From: Streptomyces antimicrobicus
GTDB lineage: Bacteria; Actinomycetota; Actinomycetes; Streptomycetales; Streptomycetaceae
Assembly (NCBI RefSeq): GCF_020532625.1
Contig: NZ_JAJAUY010000002.1
Location: forward strand, 1-64,000
Direction of reading: 5' to 3'
DNA: 64,000 bases
The translations under genes and the position numbers were made by a program. The number at the start of each line of letters is the position of its first letter. Within the stretch, counting starts at the first letter, position 1. The notes beneath the pieces were generated by a model that searched no databases, was not told where the DNA came from, and was given only the letters and a program-made list of their open reading frames with translations. Positions 53,479 through 64,000 of this stretch are shown piece by piece.

Positions 53479-53558
53479 GACGGAAGTCTCGTGCGGCGGT
53501 GATCGATGAGTCCAACACATGTTTTTCACTTGATCCATCTCGATGCACGATGGATCGC

Positions 53559-54479
53559 ATGGATCTCCAACAGATGCGCTACGTCGTCGCGGTCGCCGAG
53601 ACCGACAGCTTCACCCGCGCCGCCGCCCGCTGCCTCGTCGTCCAGTCCGCCCTCAGCCACCAGATCGCCCGCCTGGAGAAGGAGCTCGGTGCGCGGCTCT
53701 TCGAGCGCACCAGCCGCCGGGTCCGGCTGACACCGGCCGGCGCCGCGTTCCTGCCGGCGGCCCGGCAGTGCCTGGAGGCGGCCGACCGGGCGGCCGCCGA
53801 GGTCGCCGCGGCCGTGGGCGAGGTGCGCGGACGGCTCGTCGTGGGCCTGATCCCCACGGTCGCGGCCGTCGACATCCCCACCGCCCTGGGGGACTTCCGC
53901 CGGCGCTTCCCGCACGTGCGCATCGCCCTGCGGGTGGGCGGCAGCGACCACCTCGTGGAGCAGGTCCGGCAAGGCGCCCTGGACGTGGCCTTCCTGGGGC
54001 TGCCGGTCACCGCCCGGCCGCACGGGGTCGCGGCCCACGAACTGTCCCGCGACCGGCTCGTCGCCGTGGTCGCACCGGACCATCCGCTGGCCGACGAGCC
54101 GGTGGTCGACCTGGACCGGCTCTCCCGCGAGGTCTTCGTCGACCTTCCCGCCGGCACCGCCGGGCGGGCCCAGTCCGACCAGGCCTTCGCGGCCGCCGGT
54201 CTCCGGCGGGACGTGGCGTTCGAAGTGTCCACCGTGGACTTCGTCATGACCGGGCTGGTCGCCCAGGGCCTCGCCGTCGCCCTGCTGCCGTCCGCCTACG
54301 TGCACCGGCTCAGCGGTGTCACCACGATCGAGGTCGTCGACGCCCCGGTGCGCGTCGAGCACGTCATCTGGAGCGACGCGACCCGTACGCCCGCCGCGAC
54401 GGCCTTCCTCGACACGCTGGGCGTCCCGGACACCCCGTCAGGTGCGAATCAGGGCTTTTCATCCCATGGAGTGGTTTGA
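53559..54479 (+). CDS. LysR-family regulator
   Basis: This protein is 306 residues from ATG 53559 (MDLQQMRYVVAVAETDSFTR). The winged HTH reads AAARCLVVQSALSHQIARLE and KELGARLFERTSRRVRLTPA. The effector-binding domain has GRLVVGLIPTVAAVDIPTAL and LVAVVAPDHPLADEPVVDLD. It is divergent from the EamA transporter across an ~80-bp gap with AT-rich LysR-like sequence. Such pairs usually have the regulator activate export in response to a metabolite. Confidence 0.9.
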   Translation: MDLQQMRYVVAVAETDSFTRAAARCLVVQSALSHQIARLEKELGARLFERTSRRVRLTPAGAAFLPAARQCLEAADRAAAEVAAAVGEVRGRLVVGLIPTVAAVDIPTALGDFRRRFPHVRIALRVGGSDHLVEQVRQGALDVAFLGLPVTARPHGVAAHELSRDRLVAVVAPDHPLADEPVVDLDRLSREVFVDLPAGTAGRAQSDQAFAAAGLRRDVAFEVSTVDFVMTGLVAQGLAVALLPSAYVHRLSGVTTIEVVDAPVRVEHVIWSDATRTPAATAFLDTLGVPDTPSGANQGFSSHGVV

Positions 54480-54613: not shown

Positions 54614-56230
54614 GTGGTGCTGCACGGGGACGACGCGCTGCGCGGTGGCGGGCGGTGCGCGGCGGTCATGGGCCGCGCCCTCGACCGGCTGCTCGCCGTG
54701 CCCGGAGTGCTGGCCGTGGGCATCGGCGGTCGGGCGCGACGCGGCCGGCCGACGCGGGAGCGGACCATCCGGGTCTTCGTCGCCCGCAAGCGCCCGGCGG
54801 GTGAGCTGGCGCCGGAACACCTCGTCCCGGCCGAGATCGACGGGATCGGCACCGACGTGGTGGACCTGGGGAACCCGCCGCCCGACCCGCCACCGGGGGA
54901 ATGCGAGGTCCGGGGGCCGACCGGCAGCCCGCCGGGGAGTCCCAGCCGGCTCGACCTGCGCAGGTGGAAGCAGCTGATCGGTGGGGCGATGATCGCCTCG
55001 GACGTGGACCCGAGGGCGCCCGGAACCATCGGCGGATTCCTGGAGCACACCAGCGACCCCGGCAAGGTCTACGTGCTCAGCAACCAGCACGTGCTCGGCG
55101 AGACCCTCGACCGCTCGAGGAAGGCCGATGCCGACACCCGGGTCCATCACCCGATCGAGGCGCAGTTCCCGCTGGACCGGCTCTTCTCCTCCACCTCCGT
55201 GGGCACGTACGAGACGGGCGAGCGCAGCACGACCGTCGACGCGGCCGTGGCCCGCCTGGACCCGGGCGTGAAGTGGTACGCCGACATCCTGGAGATCGGC
55301 CCGGTCACCGGCACGTACGTCCCGACGGGCCCGGAGGTGGACTCGCACTGCTTCGAGGTCCGCAAGCGCGGGGTCGCCACCGGGCTCACCGGCGGCACCG
55401 TCCAGGCCGTCGGCGCGGCCTACGACGTGGACGGCATCCGCTACACCAACCTCATCATCGTCCGGCCCAACCCCAACCGGGGGCTGCCGACCACCGTCCG
55501 CAACCACTTCTCCGACCACGGCGACTCCGGCGCCCTGGTCGTCGACGCCTACAACCGGGCCGTCGGCATGGTGCTCGCCGGCTTCGGCCCCGACGAGCCG
55601 AAGGAGATGCGCGGCTGGGGGAAGGTCCTCCCCATCGGGGTGGTGCTCGACCACTTCGTGACGACCAAGCACATGCCCGTCAAGCTGGCGACGGCGACCC
55701 GCGCCAGGATCCCGCGCGTCGTGGGCCGGCCTCCCCCGCCTCCCGCTCCGTCCCCGCCGTCCCGTGCGCCCGCGTCGTCTGCCCCGCACGCGTCCGTGCT
55801 CCCACCGTCCCCGCTCCCGCCGTCGTCGCTCGGCTCCGCCGCGGTCGTGCTGCGCGCCGACCTGGGCCGTACGGTCGCCGGTCGGCGTCTGCTCCGCCTC
55901 TGGCACGACCACGGCGAGGAGCTCGTCCGGCTCACCGCCGGTCGGCCCGACCTGGCCGGCCTCTGGAGCGCCGACGGCGGACCGGGCCTCGTCCGGCACC
56001 TCGCCGAGACGGTCACCGACCCCGCACGCGCACTGCCGACCACCATCGGGGCCGTCCCCCTGGGCGAGTACGTCGACCAGGTCCACGCCGCCTACGCCCG
56101 GTACGCGGGCCCGGAGCTGCGCTCGGCGCTCGCCAGGGCCCGCAGCGCCCTGCCCGACCTGACCGGCGCGACGTACGCGCAGCTGCTCGAAGCCCTCGGC
56201 CCGCCGGAGGAGGAGCGCCATGACCACTGA
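54614..56230 (+). CDS. Trypsin-fold protease 1 of the kelch operon
   Basis: This protein has 538 residues from GTG 54614 behind GGCGGGGG. Residues ~18-85 form an N-terminal module (PGVLAVGIGGRARRGRP, FVARKRPAGELAPEHLVPAE, DGIGTDVVDLGNP) that is also found in the next gene. Residues ~110-345 are a chymotrypsin-fold protease with His in VLSNQHVLGE, Asp in TTVDAAVARLDPG and Ser in HGDSGALVVDAYN. A Pro/Ser-rich linker (PPPPPAPSPPSRAPASSAPH) precedes a helical C-terminal domain of ~110 residues. There is no signal peptide, so it is cytosolic or exported another way. Its stop overlaps the next start. Confidence 0.85.
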   Translation: MVLHGDDALRGGGRCAAVMGRALDRLLAVPGVLAVGIGGRARRGRPTRERTIRVFVARKRPAGELAPEHLVPAEIDGIGTDVVDLGNPPPDPPPGECEVRGPTGSPPGSPSRLDLRRWKQLIGGAMIASDVDPRAPGTIGGFLEHTSDPGKVYVLSNQHVLGETLDRSRKADADTRVHHPIEAQFPLDRLFSSTSVGTYETGERSTTVDAAVARLDPGVKWYADILEIGPVTGTYVPTGPEVDSHCFEVRKRGVATGLTGGTVQAVGAAYDVDGIRYTNLIIVRPNPNRGLPTTVRNHFSDHGDSGALVVDAYNRAVGMVLAGFGPDEPKEMRGWGKVLPIGVVLDHFVTTKHMPVKLATATRARIPRVVGRPPPPPAPSPPSRAPASSAPHASVLPPSPLPPSSLGSAAVVLRADLGRTVAGRRLLRLWHDHGEELVRLTAGRPDLAGLWSADGGPGLVRHLAETVTDPARALPTTIGAVPLGEYVDQVHAAYARYAGPELRSALARARSALPDLTGATYAQLLEALGPPEEERHDH

Positions 56231-57743
56231 GGAAGAGCTCGTCGCGGCCAAGAACCGGATCAAGGAACGGCTCTTCGCCCTCCCCGGGGTGCTGCTCGTC
56301 GGGGTCGGGGCCAAGGAGGTGGGCGGCGTCCTCACCACGCAACCGGCCGTCAAGGTCCTCGTCCGCGAGAAGTTCCCCGCCCGGGCCCTCGCGGCGGCCG
56401 AGCTGATCCCGTCGGAGGTCGACGGGATCCCCACGGACGTGGTGGGCATCGGCGGCATCGTGCCGCACGCGTCCGAGCGACCGCCCGGCGTGCTCAACCC
56501 GGCCATGCGGGAGGACAAGGAGCCCCGGTTGCGGCCCCTGACGAGCGGGGCCTACCTCGGACCGGAGGGCGTCAACAGCCAGGGCACCCTCGGCTGCTTC
56601 CTCAAGGACCGGATCCAGGAATGGAAGGTCTACGCCCTCACGTGTCAGCACGTGATCACCGACGACGGAGCGTTCACCCCGCTGCCCCTGGTGAGCCGGG
56701 TGGGCCAGCCCAGAGGAGTCGACGGCTTCCTCTGCTCCGACATCTTCGGCGCGTACGTCGCCGGGGCGGAGGAGTACGCGGTCAATCCGGACGGGAGGAA
56801 GAGCCGGGTCGCGGACCGGGACGAGGGGCTGATCCGGCTGCGGCCGGGCGAGCGCTGGCGGCCGTTCGTCGAAGGGATCGGGGAGATCACCGGAGTGCAC
56901 CCGCTGACGCCGCTGGAGTCCAGCAGCAAGTACCCGGTGCGCAAGTACGGAGGACGGACGCAGAAGACCGGCGGCGTCGTCAGCGGCATGTACGACTCGC
57001 CACGGCAGGCGGACAACCTCATCCTCGTCACCCCCCACCCCCGTCCGGACCAGCAGGCCTGGGACACGCGGCACTTCTCCTGGCACGGCGACTCGGGCTC
57101 GGTCGTGGTCAACGACACGGGGACGAACGACCCCGACGGCAAGCCCGTGGTCGAGGTCGTCGGACTGCTCTACGGAGGGACTCCGGCGAACCCCGGCGAA
57201 AGCGCGGTCATGCCCATCCAGAAGGTGCTCGAACGGTTCGCGCACCACGAGCTGCTCGTCCTCGAAGTCGCCACCATCCGCAACTCCGCCCCCGTCAACA
57301 CCGTCCCCGACCCCCCGCCCGGGACTCCCGCGGCCGACGCGTCGGACGGCGCCGTGCCCGCCCCCACGGGGGCCCTGGCCGGCATCGAGGCGGACCTCCA
57401 GGCATCCCCCGCCGGCCGACTGCTGCACGCCCTCTGGCGGGACCACCGCGAAGAACTGGCGGCTCTGGTCCGCCACGAGCGGCGCGTCGCCGTGGCCTGG
57501 CACCGGGGCGGCGGCCCCGGGCTCGTACAGCTCCTGGTCCGGATGTCCGCGCGGGCCGACCTCGCCCTGCCGCAGACCCTGGCCGGCCGGCCCCTGGACG
57601 ACTGCGTCGACCAGTTGCACCGGGAGTTCCGGGAGCACGCCGGCCCCGACCTCAGGGCCGCGCTCGACCGGGCGCACAGCGCCCTGCCCCGGCTCGCGGG
57701 CCTGACCTATCCGCAACTGATCGACGCGCTCGGGCGCGCCTGA
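56220..57743 (+). CDS. Trypsin-fold protease 2 of the kelch operon
   Basis: This 507-residue protein has an ATG at 56220 inside the end of the preceding gene. The same three-part layout recurs. The N-terminal module is LPGVLLVGVGAKEVGGVLTT, VLVREKFPARALAAAELIPS and VDGIPTDVVGIG. The protease core has His in ALTCQHVITDD, Asp in RDEGLIRLRPG and Ser in HGDSGSVVVND. The C-terminal helical domain (GRLLHALWRDHREELAALVR to LTYPQLIDALG) closely parallels protease 1. The cores differ more than the flanking domains, so the flanks probably bind a shared partner. The catalytic triad is intact. Confidence 0.85.
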   Translation: MTTEEELVAAKNRIKERLFALPGVLLVGVGAKEVGGVLTTQPAVKVLVREKFPARALAAAELIPSEVDGIPTDVVGIGGIVPHASERPPGVLNPAMREDKEPRLRPLTSGAYLGPEGVNSQGTLGCFLKDRIQEWKVYALTCQHVITDDGAFTPLPLVSRVGQPRGVDGFLCSDIFGAYVAGAEEYAVNPDGRKSRVADRDEGLIRLRPGERWRPFVEGIGEITGVHPLTPLESSSKYPVRKYGGRTQKTGGVVSGMYDSPRQADNLILVTPHPRPDQQAWDTRHFSWHGDSGSVVVNDTGTNDPDGKPVVEVVGLLYGGTPANPGESAVMPIQKVLERFAHHELLVLEVATIRNSAPVNTVPDPPPGTPAADASDGAVPAPTGALAGIEADLQASPAGRLLHALWRDHREELAALVRHERRVAVAWHRGGGPGLVQLLVRMSARADLALPQTLAGRPLDDCVDQLHREFREHAGPDLRAALDRAHSALPRLAGLTYPQLIDALGRA

Positions 57744-57756
57744 GGAGGCCGGTGCC

Positions 57757-60700
57757 ATGGCGGAGCGACCCGGCACGTTGGAACACCTGGCGGCTGCACT
57801 CGCGGACATCGTCCGGTCCACCGGGGCCATGGTCCGCGACGACCTCGTCCTCGGCACCTTCGAATGCCTCGGCGTGCGGTTCCCGCCGGAGTTCCTGACC
57901 GATCCCCGGATCACGCCGGCCCGCCGGACCATCGGCGCCGCCACCGCGGCCGTCGACGCGCCCGAGCGGCGGCTGCGCGAGGCGATCCGGACGGGCAGGG
58001 CCGCCGACATGGCCACGGCCGCCCTGGAACTGGTCCAGAGCTGCGCCCGCGTGCACGCCGCCCTGCCGGCGCTGACGGCCGCGCTGCGCGCCTCGGGCCC
58101 CACCCTGCCCGGGATCTCGCAGCAGCAGATCGACGCGCTCGCCACCGATCTGGAGGCCAAGCTCAGCAAGCTCTCCCTCGCCCGGGCCATGAACGCCTCC
58201 CCACTGATGGCCGCCTGGTACACCCTCTTCGGCGTGCTGGAGCGGACGTTCCACCCCGGAGAGCCCGCCACCGACCCCACCCGTCCCCCCTACGAACAGC
58301 TCGACCTGTACCTGGAGCGGCTGCTGCCGTCCCTGCTCGATCCCGCCGGCCAGCTGCGCGAGCGGTACGGGTGGGGCACGGCCGCCTTCGACGCGGCGAA
58401 GCTGCTCGCCGTGCTGGAGACCGTCCTGACACGGATCGGGCTGCCCGCGCTGTTCGTGCCCGCCACCGCCACCACCCCACCGCTGCTCCAGGCGCTCGCC
58501 GTCGACGTCACCCCCACCGCCGACGGCGCGGGCCTGGACGTGGAGGTGGTCCTGCGCGGGGAGGGCGAGGTCACCCGGCCGGTCGAGGGACTGCGGCCCG
58601 GCGTCACCGGCACCTTCGGTGCCGCCGGGAGCCTGCCGACCGGCGCCAGGGGGGAGCTGCGGCCCTCCTTCGCGCTCCGGCTCGCCCCACCCGCACCGGA
58701 CCGCCCGGTGGGGCTCCTGCTGTCGGTGCGACTGGAGTCGCGCCCCGGGCAGCCCGTCGTGCTGCTCGGCCAGGCGGGCGGCAGCAGGCTGGAGATCGAC
58801 GCGTTCTCCGTCGCCGCCGGCCTCGCCCTCACCACGGACCCGGCCACCGGACACGCGCACGGCGCACCGCTGGCCGAAGCCTCGCTGAGCGGCGGACGGC
58901 TGGTCATCGACGCCTCCGCGGGCGACGGGTTCATCTCCTCCGTCCTCGCCGGAGGCCGCCTGGAAGCCGGCTTCGAGCTCGGCCTCGCCTTCGCCCCGGA
59001 CACCGGACTGCGCTTCACCGGAAGCGGCGGGCTGGAGGTGCAGATCCCCGTCCACCTCGGGCTCGGCCCCGTGGAGATCCGCACCGTCCTCGTCGCCGCG
59101 CGCCTCGGCGGCGGGAGCGTGCCCGTCGAACTCTCCGCGGGCTTCACCGCCACCCTCGGCCCGGTCACGGCGGCCGTCGAGCGGATGGGTGTGGTGGCCG
59201 AGTTCTCCCTCCCGCCCGGCGGCGGCAACCTCGGGCCCGCCCAGCTCGACTTCGCCTTCAAACCTCCCAGCGGGATCGGCCTGCTCGTCGACGCCGGCGT
59301 GGTCACCGGCGGCGGCTACCTCTACGCCGACCCCGACCGCGGCGAGTACGCCGGCGCGCTGGAGCTGGACTTCGCGGGCCTGGTCGCGCTCAAGGCGATC
59401 GGCCTCGTCAGTACCCGCCTGCCCGACCGGCCGGGCGGGTTCTCCCTCCTCGTGCTCATCACCACGGAGTTCGGCGGTGGCGGGATCCAGCTGGGCTACG
59501 GCTTCACCCTGCTCGCCGTGGGCGGCCTGATCGGGCTCAACCGCGGCATGGACCTGCGGGCCCTGGTCGAGGGCGTCGCGACCGGCCGCGTCGAGTCCGT
59601 GATGTTCCCCAAGGACCCCGTCGCCAACGCCCCCCGCGTCATCAGCGACCTGAGGACCTACTTCCCGCCCCAGGACGGCACGTTCCTGATCGGGCCCATG
59701 GCCAAGATCGGTTGGGGCACGCCCACCCTGGTCAGCGTCTCGCTCGGTGTGGTCGTCGAGATCCCGGGGAACATCGCGATCCTCGGGGTGCTGCGCTGCG
59801 TCCTGCCCACCGAGCAACTGCCGCTGCTCGTCCTCCAGGTCGCCTTCGTCGGCGCGATCGAGTTCGACCGCTGCCGGGTGTGGTTCTTCGCCAGGATCTT
59901 CGACTCGCGCGTCCTGACGATGACGCTCGACGGCGGCATGGGCCTGCTCGTGTCCTGGGGCGACGACCCCCAACTGGTGCTGACGGTCGGGGGGTTCCAC
60001 CCCGCGTACAAGGCGCCGCAGCTGCCCTTCCCGGTTCCGGAGCGGATCTGCGTCGACATCCTCCACCAGCCCGGCCGGCTCATCCGCGTGTCCGGGTACT
60101 TCGCCGTCACCAGCAACACCGTCCAGTTCGGCGCCCACGCCGAAATCCGCCTCGGCTTCGACGACTTCGGCATCGAAGGGCACCTGGGCTTCGACGCGCT
60201 CTTCCAGTTCTCGCCGTTCGCCTTCGTCGTCCGGGTCTCCGCCGGCGTCTGCCTCAAGGCCTTCGGCGTCGGGATCTTCGGCATCGACCTCGACTTCCAG
60301 CTGGAGGGGGTGGCTCCCTGGCGGGCGCGGGGCCGGGGTTCGATCTCCCTGCTGTTCTTCGAGATCTCCGCCGACTTCGACATCACCTGGGGCGAGGAGC
60401 ACCACACCACGCTGCCGCCCGTCGACGCCCTGACCCTGCTCGCGGCCGAGCTGGCGAAGACGGAGGGCTGGGAGACCCGGCTGCCCGCCGGCGGCACCGT
60501 CCCGCTCGTGACCCTGCGCCCGCTGGGCGAGCAGGACCGGCTGGTCCTGCACCCGCTCGGCAGCCTCTTCGTCCGCCAGCGGGTCCTCCCGCTCGGGGTC
60601 CGTATCGACCGGATCGGCGCCCAGCGCCCGGCGGACGCCGTGCGCTTCCGCGTCGAGCCGGCCGCCGGGAGCGAGCTGGTGCGGCTGTCCACCACCGCCG

Positions 60701-62427
60701 ACAAGTTCGCCATGGCCCAGTTCCGCGACATGGACGACGCGGACAAGCTCTCGGCGGCCGGGTACGAGGACCAGGACGCCGGGATCGAGCTGGGCACGGC
60801 CCAGGACGCCTTGGCCGCGGTCCGCGCGGTGCGCCGCAGCGCCCGCTACGAGGCCCACGTGTTCGACAGCACCGCGGCCCCGCACCGCACCGGCTCCGCC
60901 GGAGCCACCGGAGCCACCCGAGCCGCCGGAGCCGCCGGAGCTGTCGGAGCATCCGGCACGGTCACCCGGTTCAAGAGCGTCAGCGGCGCGGTGTTCGACC
61001 GGCTCCGGGCCGGCAGCAGCACCAGCCGCTCCCCGCTGTCGCGGCACGAGGAGCGGCTGCGCCGCCCGTTCGACGCCGAGGACACCGCCCGCGTGTCGGG
61101 TCCCCGCTTCGTCATCGCCCATGTACGCACCAACGCGCAGGCGTTCGCCCCGTCCGGCGGCCTCGACCAGGGCCAGGACGGCTACCGCAGCCGTACCGCC
61201 GCAGAAGAGGCCCTGGCCTCCTGGGTGGCCGCCGATCCCCGGCTGGCGGGGCGGCTGCACGTGCTGCCCGAGTCGGAGGCGGCCCGCGCCCTGGCCCGCC
61301 CCGGCACCTGGTCCGCCGCCGGCCCCGCGCCGTACGCCGCCCACCTCGACGCGGCCGACGCCGTCCGGCTGGCCGACGGCGCCGTCCTGGTCGCCGGCGG
61401 CGCGGACGGCACCGGCGCGGTGCTCGCCTCGGCGGCGGTGTGCGACCCGGTGACGCTCGACTGGACCGCCCTGCCCGACCTGCGCACCGCCCGCACCCGC
61501 CACACGGTCACCCGGCTCGCCGACCACCGGGTCCTGGTGACCGGCGGGCAGGACGAGCACGGCCGAGCCCTGTCCTCCGTCGAGATCTTCGATCCCGTCA
61601 CCGGGGTCTGGAGCGGCGCGGGCTCCCTGGGCACGGCCCGCTACGACCACCGCGCCACCCTGCTCGGCACCGGCGAGGTCCTGGTGACCGGTGGCATCGG
61701 CACCCCGGGCGACGGCACCGCCGGCCGCACCCTGAGCTCGGCCGAGCTGCTGGACCCGCGCACCGGCACCTGGAAGCCCGCCCGGGACATGGCCGACGCC
61801 CGGTGCCGCCACGAGGCGGTCCTCCTCGGCGAGCAGGGCCCCGTCCTGGTCGTCGGCGGCGCCCTGGAGACCGGCGGTGAGCCGGCCGCCCTCGCGTTCT
61901 GCGAGCGCTACGACCGCACCACCGACTCCTGGGCCCCGGCGGCGAGCCTCGCCACTCCCCGCACCGGCCACCAGGCCACCCGGCTGGCCGACGGCACCGT
62001 CCTCGTCACCGGTGGCCGGGCGCCGGGGGCCGACGGGCCCGGTGCCGCAGGCCGGTTCGACAGCGCCGAGCCACCCTCCGTCGAGCGGTACGCACCCACC
62101 GCGGACACCTGGTCGGCCGAGGCCCCCCTGCCCGGCGCCGGCCGCAGCGGGCACCGGGCGGTGCCGCTGCGCTCGGGCCGGGTGCTGCTCACCGGTGGGA
62201 CCGGCGGCCCCGGGCGCACCACCGGCTACCGCAGCACGCTGCTGTTCGACCCGGCCACGCACACCTGGACCGCCACCGGCGGGCCGGCCACCGGCCGCCA
62301 CGGGTTCGCCGCCGTGGAGCTGGACGACGGCCGGGTCCTGGCCGTCGGGGGCACCGTCCGGTCCGGTCCGGCGACCCCCGACGGTGCGCGGACCACCACG
62401 GCGACGGCGGAGGTCTACACCCCATGA
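57757..62427 (+). CDS. DUF6603-like giant protein with C-terminal kelch propeller
   Basis: This 1556-residue protein starts at ATG 57757 behind GAGGAGG, 13 bases after protease 2. After a helical N-terminus (~1-170), residues ~240-900 are a long beta-rich DUF6603-like region. It has many repeated strands (GGRLEAGFELGLAFAPDTGL, VTGGGYLYADPDRGEYAGAL) and the characteristic VGGFHPAYKAPQLPFPVPER and FQFSPFAFVVRVSAGVCLKA. A low-complexity Ala/Gly/Thr linker (residues ~1045-1068) leads to a propeller from ~1188 onward. The propeller has seven kelch blades (VLVAGG, VLVTGG x2, VLVVGG, VLVTGG, VLLTGG, VLAVGG). There is no signal peptide. It is probably a cytosolic or particle-associated scaffold; the family function is unknown. 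Confidence 0.85.
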   Translation: MAERPGTLEHLAAALADIVRSTGAMVRDDLVLGTFECLGVRFPPEFLTDPRITPARRTIGAATAAVDAPERRLREAIRTGRAADMATAALELVQSCARVHAALPALTAALRASGPTLPGISQQQIDALATDLEAKLSKLSLARAMNASPLMAAWYTLFGVLERTFHPGEPATDPTRPPYEQLDLYLERLLPSLLDPAGQLRERYGWGTAAFDAAKLLAVLETVLTRIGLPALFVPATATTPPLLQALAVDVTPTADGAGLDVEVVLRGEGEVTRPVEGLRPGVTGTFGAAGSLPTGARGELRPSFALRLAPPAPDRPVGLLLSVRLESRPGQPVVLLGQAGGSRLEIDAFSVAAGLALTTDPATGHAHGAPLAEASLSGGRLVIDASAGDGFISSVLAGGRLEAGFELGLAFAPDTGLRFTGSGGLEVQIPVHLGLGPVEIRTVLVAARLGGGSVPVELSAGFTATLGPVTAAVERMGVVAEFSLPPGGGNLGPAQLDFAFKPPSGIGLLVDAGVVTGGGYLYADPDRGEYAGALELDFAGLVALKAIGLVSTRLPDRPGGFSLLVLITTEFGGGGIQLGYGFTLLAVGGLIGLNRGMDLRALVEGVATGRVESVMFPKDPVANAPRVISDLRTYFPPQDGTFLIGPMAKIGWGTPTLVSVSLGVVVEIPGNIAILGVLRCVLPTEQLPLLVLQVAFVGAIEFDRCRVWFFARIFDSRVLTMTLDGGMGLLVSWGDDPQLVLTVGGFHPAYKAPQLPFPVPERICVDILHQPGRLIRVSGYFAVTSNTVQFGAHAEIRLGFDDFGIEGHLGFDALFQFSPFAFVVRVSAGVCLKAFGVGIFGIDLDFQLEGVAPWRARGRGSISLLFFEISADFDITWGEEHHTTLPPVDALTLLAAELAKTEGWETRLPAGGTVPLVTLRPLGEQDRLVLHPLGSLFVRQRVLPLGVRIDRIGAQRPADAVRFRVEPAAGSELVRLSTTADKFAMAQFRDMDDADKLSAAGYEDQDAGIELGTAQDALAAVRAVRRSARYEAHVFDSTAAPHRTGSAGATGATRAAGAAGAVGASGTVTRFKSVSGAVFDRLRAGSSTSRSPLSRHEERLRRPFDAEDTARVSGPRFVIAHVRTNAQAFAPSGGLDQGQDGYRSRTAAEEALASWVAADPRLAGRLHVLPESEAARALARPGTWSAAGPAPYAAHLDAADAVRLADGAVLVAGGADGTGAVLASAAVCDPVTLDWTALPDLRTARTRHTVTRLADHRVLVTGGQDEHGRALSSVEIFDPVTGVWSGAGSLGTARYDHRATLLGTGEVLVTGGIGTPGDGTAGRTLSSAELLDPRTGTWKPARDMADARCRHEAVLLGEQGPVLVVGGALETGGEPAALAFCERYDRTTDSWAPAASLATPRTGHQATRLADGTVLVTGGRAPGADGPGAAGRFDSAEPPSVERYAPTADTWSAEAPLPGAGRSGHRAVPLRSGRVLLTGGTGGPGRTTGYRSTLLFDPATHTWTATGGPATGRHGFAAVELDDGRVLAVGGTVRSGPATPDGARTTTATAEVYTP

Positions 62428-62468
62428 GCGCGCTCAGCACCACCACCACGAAGGGTTCGAGGCCATGA
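62424..62468 (+). other. 14-codon relay ORF bridging two genes
   Basis: ATG 62424 overlaps the stop of the large protein (ATGA). The frame MSALSTTTTKGSRP ends with a TGA that overlaps the ATG of the next gene (ATGA at 62465). A ribosome finishing one gene could thus pass through this mini-ORF straight into the next. It may be chance, but the double overlap is striking. Confidence 0.45.
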
Positions 62469-63640
62469 GCAGTCCCCCCGCGGCGGCCGCCGGCGGCTGG
62501 ACGAAGACCGGCGACCTGCCCCTGGCAGCGAGCTGGTACGGGCAGCACGACGGAGCCGTCCTGCTGAAGAACGGCCAGGTCCTCGTCGTGGGCGGCGCGG
62601 ACGCCCAGGGCCGTGCCCTGGCCAAGGGAGCCGTCTACGACCCGGCCACCGGTGCCTGGACGGCCACCACCTCGCTGCGCGACCCCCGCCGGCTGCACAC
62701 CGTGACCCGGCTGGGCAACGGCAAGGTCCTCGTCACCGGAGGCACCAGCGGCCCCTCGCGGCTGTCACCGCCCCTGAACACGGTCGAGCTCTACGAGCCG
62801 GGCACCGACACCTGGAAGACCGTGACCGCCATGCGCGAGGCGCGCTGCGGCCACACCGCCGTACCCCTGGACGGCACCCTGGTCCTGGTCGCCGGCGGCT
62901 ACGCGGCCCGGTCGGCGACCTCCGTACGGGCCCTGCGGACCGCGGAGGTCTACGACTGGGAGGCCGACACCTGGCACGACGCCAAACCCATGAACGACGC
63001 CCGCGCGGACCACGGCGCCGTCCGCTTCAAGGCCGGCCGGGTGCTGGTGTCCGGCGGCACCGTGCCCGTCTCCCCCACCGGGGACACGGCCCTCGCCTTC
63101 TGCGAGTTGTACGACCCGGCCACGGACACCTGGACCCCCACCGGCAGCCTGCTCCAGCCGCGGGGCGGCCACCGGAGCGTCCTGGCCTCCGACACCACGG
63201 CCCTGGTGGTCGGCGGGGCGACGCCGGGCACCGCGGGCGACGGCACGTACGCCCCCTTCCGCACGCTCACGGCCGAGCGGTACGACGTCACCACGGGAGA
63301 GTGGGCGGCGCTGCCCGAGGCACCCGGCGGACGGGGCGCCCACCAGGTGGTGCCCCTGGGCACCGGCAGCTTCCTCGTCGCGGGCGGCACCGCCGACGTG
63401 CACAACGGCGCGGGCTACCAGAGCACCCTGATCCTGGACCCCGCCGCCCCCGCCGCCCGGACGTGGACCGCCGCGGCCGGCCAGCTCACCGGCCGCTGGG
63501 CGTTCGCCGCGGTCGCCCTGGACCGCAACAAGGTCCTCGTCACCGGTGGGACCGTGCAGAACGGCCTCGCCGCCCCCGACCCCGCCACCGCCGAACTCAC
63601 CCGGAGCACCGAGATCTTCACCGCCGGGAGCCCCGGATGA
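62465..63640 (+). CDS. Stand-alone seven-bladed kelch protein
   Basis: This protein has 391 residues from ATG 62465 (MSSPPAAAAGGWTKTGDLPL). Seven blades follow the kelch pattern of a hydrophobic strand ending in GG: VLVVGG, VLVTGG, VLVAGG, VLVSGG, ALVVGG, FLVAGG, VLVTGG, with YDPATGAWTATTSL-type turns. It matches the C-terminal propeller of the preceding gene, so one arose from the other by duplication. There is no signal peptide. Kelch propellers bind partner proteins; here it likely works with the DUF6603-like protein. Its stop overlaps the next start. Confidence 0.9.
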   Translation: MSSPPAAAAGGWTKTGDLPLAASWYGQHDGAVLLKNGQVLVVGGADAQGRALAKGAVYDPATGAWTATTSLRDPRRLHTVTRLGNGKVLVTGGTSGPSRLSPPLNTVELYEPGTDTWKTVTAMREARCGHTAVPLDGTLVLVAGGYAARSATSVRALRTAEVYDWEADTWHDAKPMNDARADHGAVRFKAGRVLVSGGTVPVSPTGDTALAFCELYDPATDTWTPTGSLLQPRGGHRSVLASDTTALVVGGATPGTAGDGTYAPFRTLTAERYDVTTGEWAALPEAPGGRGAHQVVPLGTGSFLVAGGTADVHNGAGYQSTLILDPAAPAARTWTAAAGQLTGRWAFAAVALDRNKVLVTGGTVQNGLAAPDPATAELTRSTEIFTAGSPG

Positions 63641-64000
63641 CCACCAACGGCTATTCCTTCCTGCCCTGGCTGCGCACCGGAATCGCCACCAGGATCGCCG
63701 ACCCGGCCGACCCGGCGGCGTACACCGCCCCGGTGACCGGGCGCGCCACCGTCCCCGTCGAACTCGACGTGACCGGGGAGCCCGTGGTCCCCGGCCCCCT
63801 GCTGCACGCGCCCGTACGGCAGCGCGTGCAGCTCTACGGGCCCGGCGACGTGATCGGCGTGGACCCCAGGGCGATCTCCCGGGTCGAGCCCCGGCCCGGG
63901 ACCACCGAGACCGAACCCAACTACCTCGCCCACATCGAGTTCTACCCCGAGGACTTCGCCTGGCGGTACAGCCCCGCCGCCCCGGACCACGGCACCGGCC
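63637..64000 (+). CDS. Start of a further operon gene (incomplete)
   Basis: ATG 63637 overlaps the kelch stop (ATGA). The visible 121 residues read YSFLPWLRTGIATRIADPAD, RATVPVELDVTGEPVV, VQLYGPGDVIGVDPRAISRV, RPGTTETEPNYLAHIEFYPE and DFAWRYSP before the window ends. The phrase NYLAHIEFYPEDFAWRYSPA resembles a bacterial protein family found with DUF6603/kelch genes, but I cannot name it. It continues the operon, so the system extends beyond the window. Confidence 0.75.
   Translation, partial: MTTNGYSFLPWLRTGIATRIADPADPAAYTAPVTGRATVPVELDVTGEPVVPGPLLHAPVRQRVQLYGPGDVIGVDPRAISRVEPRPGTTETEPNYLAHIEFYPEDFAWRYSPAAPDHGTG

Follow-up and report, generated by a model that had tools for sequence, protein, structure and literature searches.

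A conserved four-gene DUF6603 core with an exchangeable upstream enzyme in Streptomyces antimicrobicus, other bacteria and haloarchaea

The DUF6603 family (Pfam PF20248) has no function assigned to it. The other described systems nearest to the locus reported here are the NAL1-type proteases, named after NARROW LEAF 1 of plants, the extracellular contractile injection systems (eCIS), which are made of many small tail genes, and the bacterial conflict systems with exchangeable effectors. We analysed a stretch of 64,000 nucleotides from Streptomyces antimicrobicus (assembly GCF_020532625.1, contig NZ_JAJAUY010000002.1; hereafter the window), which forms bases 1-64000 of a 128,530-base contig, and the reading was continued beyond 64000 for the 3′ part of an operon that the window end splits. 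This operon contains four large genes, named D, A, B and C, of which D is a clear member of DUF6603, and they are preceded by a position, the slot, which holds two protease genes here and other enzyme genes elsewhere. The conserved unit is D-A-B-C, and neither the proteases nor the kelch proteins found with it are universal. The genes A, B and C and the enzyme slot lie outside the Pfam description of DUF6603 that was shown.

An earlier sequence-only reading of the window had described four complete genes and one partial gene overlapping or nearly touching each other, and all five were found on the plus strand. The extension to the right that it had proposed completed the partial gene, which starts at 63637 and is A, and added B and C, which lie wholly beyond the window. 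The operon thus completed has seven genes, all on the plus strand, in the order protease 1, protease 2, D, kelch, A, B and C, and neighbouring genes overlap or are at most 37 bases apart, the two protease genes overlapping by 11 bp. The next gene after C, at 74404, is on the opposite strand. The features are as follows, where WHR denotes a C-terminal domain of about 110 residues common to the twin proteases.

54614..56230, plus strand: slot gene 1, NAL1-like trypsin-fold (S1) protease, 538 residues from a GTG (start uncertain)
55850..56176, plus strand: C-terminal WHR domain of protease 1, residues 413-521, proposed docking domain (iterated profile from both proteases; alignment)
56220..57743, plus strand: slot gene 2, second NAL1-like S1 protease, 507 residues
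57384..57710, plus strand: C-terminal WHR domain of protease 2, residues 389-497 (iterated profile, alignment)
57757..62427, plus strand: core gene D, DUF6603 protein with a C-terminal kelch propeller, 1556 residues
59050..60741, plus strand: DUF6603 domain of D, residues 432-995 (Pfam PF20248; predicted beta-meander)
61369..62391, plus strand: kelch propeller fused to D, about residues 1205-1545 (Pfam)
62465..63640, plus strand: separate kelch gene, 391 residues, accessory (Pfam kelch)
63637..66966, plus strand: core gene A, 1109 residues, first 364 bases in the window
66959..72235, plus strand: core gene B, 1758 residues, beyond the window on the same contig
72228..74324, plus strand: core gene C, 698 residues, beyond the window on the same contig

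The conservation of the core was examined in named genomes, where a search with an alignment of A found 520 relatives; the best 80 were kept, with a bias to near relatives, and their genes were called by our own script. These 80 loci belong to 11 phyla, and D, A, B and C, with or without a kelch gene after D, were contiguous and in this order in 72 of them, from 10 bacterial phyla, including two (L122 and L123) in which D or B was split into several called open reading frames (ORFs). Of the eight loci without the full core, seven were on short contigs or at their ends, and the eighth (L063) had no single called D ORF. The genes A and B overlapped in 48 of 79 neighbouring pairs and B and C in 46 of 75. 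The nearest named relative among the matches kept was Streptomyces sp. WAC06614 (94% in the second half of A). Furthermore, D, A and B were found in order on four haloarchaeal plasmids and one Gemmatimonadota plasmid (5/5), with C in four of the five; the core was complete on three of the four haloarchaeal plasmids, that of Halobellus having a split B and no recognised C, and A was split in Gemmatirosa. The plasmids carrying core copies were of about 0.2-2.6 Mb. The sequence-only reading had taken the twin proteases, the DUF6603 protein and two kelch propellers as the set to be sought in other genomes. This neighbourhood search recovered a constant gene order, but it is that of D-A-B-C; the full set was not conserved together, because only 36 of the 72 complete loci have a separate kelch gene between D and A, and S1 proteases occupy the slot in only 18 of the 69 loci whose slot was classed.

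Within the genus, DUF6603 was found in 19 of 150 genomes at 26 places, the window's included. When 20 of the other 25 places were fetched, eight (L041-L044, L047-L050) had relatives of A and B beside D, 11 belonged to a second kind of cluster (type II, described below) and one (L045) was too short to tell. The gene C was found in 12 of the 150 genomes; the 11 strong cases were all among the 19 genomes with DUF6603, each on the same contig as a D and within about 14 kb of it, and the twelfth (G058) was a 28-residue match (E = 2e-4) in a genome that has no DUF6603. The six genomes whose viewed DUF6603 places were only of type II, or only the short L045, gave no C match. Two of the fetched loci, L043 and L044, are identical over the tested stretch to the named Streptomyces loci L061 and L051, respectively, and these duplicates are counted in the tallies of catalytic residues and WHR given below. 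Downstream of C, 104 of 108 listed neighbours were scanned (genes below 80 or above 700 residues dropped) and no Pfam family occurred in more than five of them and no PADLOC family in more than two; thus, these sequences show no sign of a further core gene beyond the four, nor, as judged with no baseline run, of a defence island.

A gene on the same strand was present within 150 bases before D in 69 of the 75 named loci with a called D, and within 50 bases in 67 of these 69. The slot proteins fall by Pfam into peptidase M64, subtilase S8 of two kinds (the second named S8b), PhoD-like phosphatase, phospholipase D (PLD), galactose-oxidase-like and tyrosinase classes, and some of those scanned had no Pfam match; the class assignments rest on BLAST clusters, with a Pfam scan of 20 of the 106 proteins in the slot set plus the two of the window. 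Four upstream proteins of the fetched plasmids were also scanned, and the slot gene of the haloarchaeal locus L133 was found to be PhoD, whereas the slot protein of the Streptomyces longwoodensis plasmid (L135) has a peptidoglycan-binding domain. On a tree of A, 69 of the 79 rows, window included, could be given a slot class and 10 could not: S1 18, M64 16, S8 14, PhoD 5, S8b 4, PLD 3, galactose oxidase 2, tyrosinase 2 and unmatched 5, where L097 is classed by its first slot gene though its second is M64. On this tree, which was made by a quick method and has a known long-branch join, there are at least 30 changes of slot class, against a possible minimum of 10 and 43.6 with shuffled labels. 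The S1 class changes 16 times, 14 of them forced by well supported branches, and is no more clustered than shuffled labels. Among the nearest core relatives of the window, the slot is S1 in L053 and S8 in L051, L052 and L054, and unrelated protease families were found on sister core branches (L117 with S8 and L120 with S1; L077 with M64 and L081 with S1).

The three largest classes of slot enzyme retain the residues needed for catalysis. In both window proteases the aligned His, Asp and GDSG are in place, so that the two intact trypsin-fold proteases of the sequence-only reading held good, and the catalytic residues were kept in 33 of 33 S1, 18 of 18 M64 and 15 of 15 main-group S8 proteins (one M64 and one S8 row being duplicates). 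The three PLD slot proteins have two, two and one HKD motifs; the active sites of the PhoD, galactose oxidase and tyrosinase proteins were checked in part. The matching terminal modules proposed for the twin proteases were borne out at the C-terminus, where WHR is a real domain. At the N-terminus both proteins are NAL1_N-like, at a level below the Pfam cut-off (PF25608, 17.2 and 18.8 bits against 27), and Nal1_C gave 13.4 bits against 26.1 in protease 2 only. Both also matched the phage protein family phrog_20754, a protease (E = 1.3e-31 for protease 1 and 8.1e-24 for protease 2). Separately, it was noticed that S8b proteins occur as tandem S8-like slot proteins in L068, L072, L073 and L112, and they are possibly altered or dead enzymes.

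The WHR domain has a signature around H..E...LV...RRV.VAWHR..GP. A profile built from both window proteases and iterated over all called proteins found it in 38 of them, namely S1 and S8 slot enzymes and stand-alone ORFs of 138 residues in L114 and L115; a 139-residue open frame in the genome of L124 is probably a third stand-alone copy. It was present on 28 of 33 aligned S1 and 7 of 15 S8 proteins. In the genomes searched the domain is confined to the locus: the 150 genomes of the genus gave six strong places in four genomes, all in the locus, along with a weak match outside it in G146 (E = 9.5e-4), and in 25 genomes, 19 with WHR and six chosen for other slot genes, all 28 places were inside the locus when checked by sequence, the latter six genomes having none. 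A domain of one cassette carried by two unrelated protease folds has the look that would be expected of a docking or sorting tag. No profile similarity of WHR to D, A, B or C was found, and it may be that WHR docks the enzyme onto D-A-B-C.

Among the core proteins, D matches DUF6603 with 416 bits (cut-off 27), and the kelch motifs of its C-terminus and of the separate gene are far above the Pfam cut-offs, in agreement with the DUF6603/kelch giant and second propeller read earlier. The AlphaFold2 model of D residues 1-1180 (mean pLDDT, the model's own per-residue confidence score, 84.3) predicts that the DUF6603 part is a large antiparallel beta-meander loosely resembling beta-barrels. For A, B and C, Pfam gave nothing even at E = 1, and no credible match came from NCBIfam, PHROGs, PADLOC or the sequences of the PDB. 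The relatives of C number at least 1217 among 7989 scored protein-database candidates. In L050, B and C form a single ORF, and C lies inside frames of 2028-2118 residues in three genomes, that of L050 included; a seeming homology between B and C (97.8%) was the product of this one fused row and was gone once the row was removed. A strongly hydrophobic insert near residue 610, mostly of two-helix length, was found in 11 of 81 A genes from several phyla (L090, L092, L093, L099-L104, L107 and L119). In single relatives further domains are joined to the core: the C of haloarchaeal L133 (20751-23465) ends in a lamin tail domain (PF00932, E = 1.7e-29), which the annotation also gives for the C of L134, and the A of L135 (9998-15127) has FG-GAP-like repeats and is annotated as a VCBS repeat protein.

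Because the gene order is constant, the genes overlap and B and C are a single ORF in a few genomes, we infer that D, A, B and C act in one complex. We tentatively propose, as a possibility falling somewhat short of an even chance, that this core assembles into one complex, captures the slot enzyme by its C-terminal domain and then either presents the enzyme or delivers it, at the membrane or beyond. In this scheme the four proteins would assemble into one large complex in which D may, as a guess, be a shell or pore part; the slot enzyme would dock on it via WHR in many S1 and S8 cases and otherwise via another part; the complex would then hold, present or deliver the enzyme at or beyond the cell membrane; and the kelch propellers would be accessory, perhaps binding a target. 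The slot can hold a protease, a phosphatase, a phospholipase or a copper oxidase, which argues that the enzyme's own activity is the output, and that the enzyme would be payload and not a processing factor. The place of action may be the envelope or the outside. Export is the least certain step, and is suggested by the types of enzyme, by the peptidoglycan-binding and lamin-tail domains of single relatives and by the hydrophobic insert of A. A stronger version is more doubtful. In it, D-A-B-C would be a new class of protein nanomachine of bacteria and haloarchaea, with no relation to phage tails or to the secretion systems already known; it would take up exchangeable enzymes (the S1 and S8 ones via the docking domain) and carry them out of the cell or into a neighbouring one. 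A particle or injection-like structure, one of the possibilities named in the sequence-only reading, is possible.

Several observations weigh against enzyme delivery by a D-A-B-C complex. The WHR domain is missing from 5 of 33 S1, 8 of 15 S8, 18 of 18 M64 and 8 of 8 S8b proteins, so that docking by WHR cannot be universal, and its absence from 8 of the 15 S8 enzymes slightly lowered our confidence in the proposal. The eight S8b proteins keep the Ser region and lack the canonical Asp and His. The model of D fits known beta-barrels (outer-membrane barrels or ApoB-like lipid sheets) only loosely, with a root-mean-square deviation of about 8-13 Å, and the A of the window has no hydrophobic insert. 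A simple rule flagged few signal peptides: four among 78 proteins for D, one among 81 for A, none among 82 for B or 76 for C, and 12 among the 106 of the slot set, so that an extracellular role would need an unusual export route or lysis; eight of the 12 slot-set flags are the conserved PGV motif of S1 N-termini, which leaves L084_u2, L087_u2, L089_u1 and L110_u1. On the tree of A, the M64, S8, S8b and PhoD classes are more clustered than shuffles, which makes the exchange of the slot frequent and not constant. Finally, proteases fill 52 of the 69 classed slots, a count that makes maturation, in which the enzyme would have a processing role, the main rival.

In the maturation reading, the core would assemble or switch on once the slot enzyme had cut or modified one of its proteins, D, A, B or C. 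The excess of proteases is what it would lead one to expect, the placing of slot genes directly before D suits it, and WHR could serve to bring S1 and S8 enzymes to the core. However, PhoD phosphatase, PLD, galactose oxidase and tyrosinase occupy the same slot, and unrelated protease families stand on sister core branches, although one would expect a processing site to limit which enzyme can act there. We consider maturation unlikely. The protease-activated assembly of the sequence-only reading does not generalise, since a phosphatase, a PLD, a galactose oxidase or a tyrosinase can replace the protease.

An intracellular conflict or defence system, in which D-A-B-C would detect an invader and then set the slot enzyme free within the cell, is less likely still. 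In keeping with it, the core is constant and its effectors would be swappable, the presence of the locus is patchy (C is convincing in 11 of the 150 genus genomes), copies lie on plasmids, and the propeller domains could be sensors. On the other side, the six operon proteins compared with PADLOC had no credible match, the only one being to a 25-residue stretch of C (E = 0.066), and the domain-library scans recognised no ATPase, nuclease or cyclase in the core. When the 104 proteins flanking C were compared with PADLOC, 41 families were matched, none in more than two members, with no baseline for these scattered matches, and tyrosinase-type oxidases would be odd as intracellular effectors. The conflict system that had been listed as a possibility is thus unsupported.

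A derived phage tail or contractile injection system, with parts diverged beyond recognition, appears improbable. Such systems swap cargo and lack signal peptides, which the changing slot enzyme and the scarcity of signal peptides here resemble, and one of 120 listed C relatives is named 'Phage tail protein' (P0019), the names of the others being 'hypothetical' or 'uncharacterized'. Nevertheless, no match to the contractile sheath family PF04984 was found in the window's assembly, the only one scanned besides 14 control genomes, three of which matched; PHROGs matched neither the DUF6603 part of D nor the other core proteins credibly, the best E being 0.02 for A and 0.07 for B, with no match at all for C; no relative of A turned up when viral contigs were scanned with two patterns; and the structure model of C had no solved-fold match in the comparisons made. 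Hence the match to a known eCIS or phage-tail locus that the sequence-only reading had named as a possible refutation was not found in PF04984 or PHROGs. The sole 'phage' record with a relative (L137, MT835531.1, from human faeces) holds the end of D with A, B and C, and ordinary bacterial genes adjoin them, so we take it to be, in all probability, a bacterial scaffold with a wrong label.

The locus could also be an ordinary enzyme cluster that, for instance, breaks down extracellular polymers or builds a coat, its large proteins being scaffolds that take no part in delivery. The enzyme types suit extracellular degradation, and the propellers and lamin-tail or peptidoglycan-binding domains suit a surface scaffold, but the order of the four genes is strict across ten phyla, no enzyme is constant and no gene recurs downstream of C, which makes this reading equally improbable.

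Around the operon, a LysR-type regulator (53499-54479, same strand) lies 134 bases ahead of protease 1 and is a possible regulator of it; a gene with a LysR-like beginning also stands ahead of the slot in L043, though such a gene is not a constant neighbour. A 1549-codon open frame runs antisense to the DUF6603 gene (57652-62301, minus strand), and the large antisense ORFs of the window were set aside as probable shadows of its high G+C content.

The type II DUF6603 clusters of the genus (L031-L040 and L046) consist of DUF6603, proteins of about 750 and about 1200 residues and further proteins, and resemble D-A-B-C in that a DUF6603 gene is followed by large proteins of no recognised kind. Their second protein is probably a distant relative of A over its own first ~230 residues, as suggested by profile comparison (hhalign 85%, E = 6e-6; 50%, E = 1.6e-4 with a larger alignment), and the third showed no relation to B or C at the sensitivity of profile comparison used. 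Directly upstream in both L032 and L037 stands a gene whose N-terminus is similar, with a sub-threshold metallo-beta-lactamase match in L037 (E = 0.013), and G060 has four type II copies and one of the D-A-B-C type (type I).

This core of four genes and its exchangeable enzyme, complete in ten bacterial phyla and also in haloarchaea, thus appear undescribed, and DUF6603 is the only Pfam name in the core apart from kelch; the family had no mention in the 5.39 million papers searched, which mostly exclude subscription papers. If the enzymes are carried out of cells, proteins would be moved here in a new way that makes use of a short docking domain; if they are not exported, a large and widely conserved protein set without function is still at hand, and the enzyme swaps make the question of function directly testable. 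Compared with the known systems, the window proteases are like the NAL1 type in their NAL1_N-like N-terminus and S1 catalytic residues and differ from it in the low NAL1_N score (17-19 bits) and the extra C-terminal WHR domain. The conflict systems share a modular effector position beside a constant core, whereas the locus has no credible PADLOC match and no recognised nucleoside triphosphatase or sensor. The likeness to eCIS is one of analogy: a constant core, swappable cargo enzymes lacking signal peptides and a broad environmental spread are common to both, and what separates them is the absence of a sheath family from the window's assembly and of credible PHROG matches from A, B and C, and the four large core genes where eCIS have many small ones. 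Set against these, D-A-B-C with its enzyme slot appears to be a categorically new system, whose function we infer throughout.

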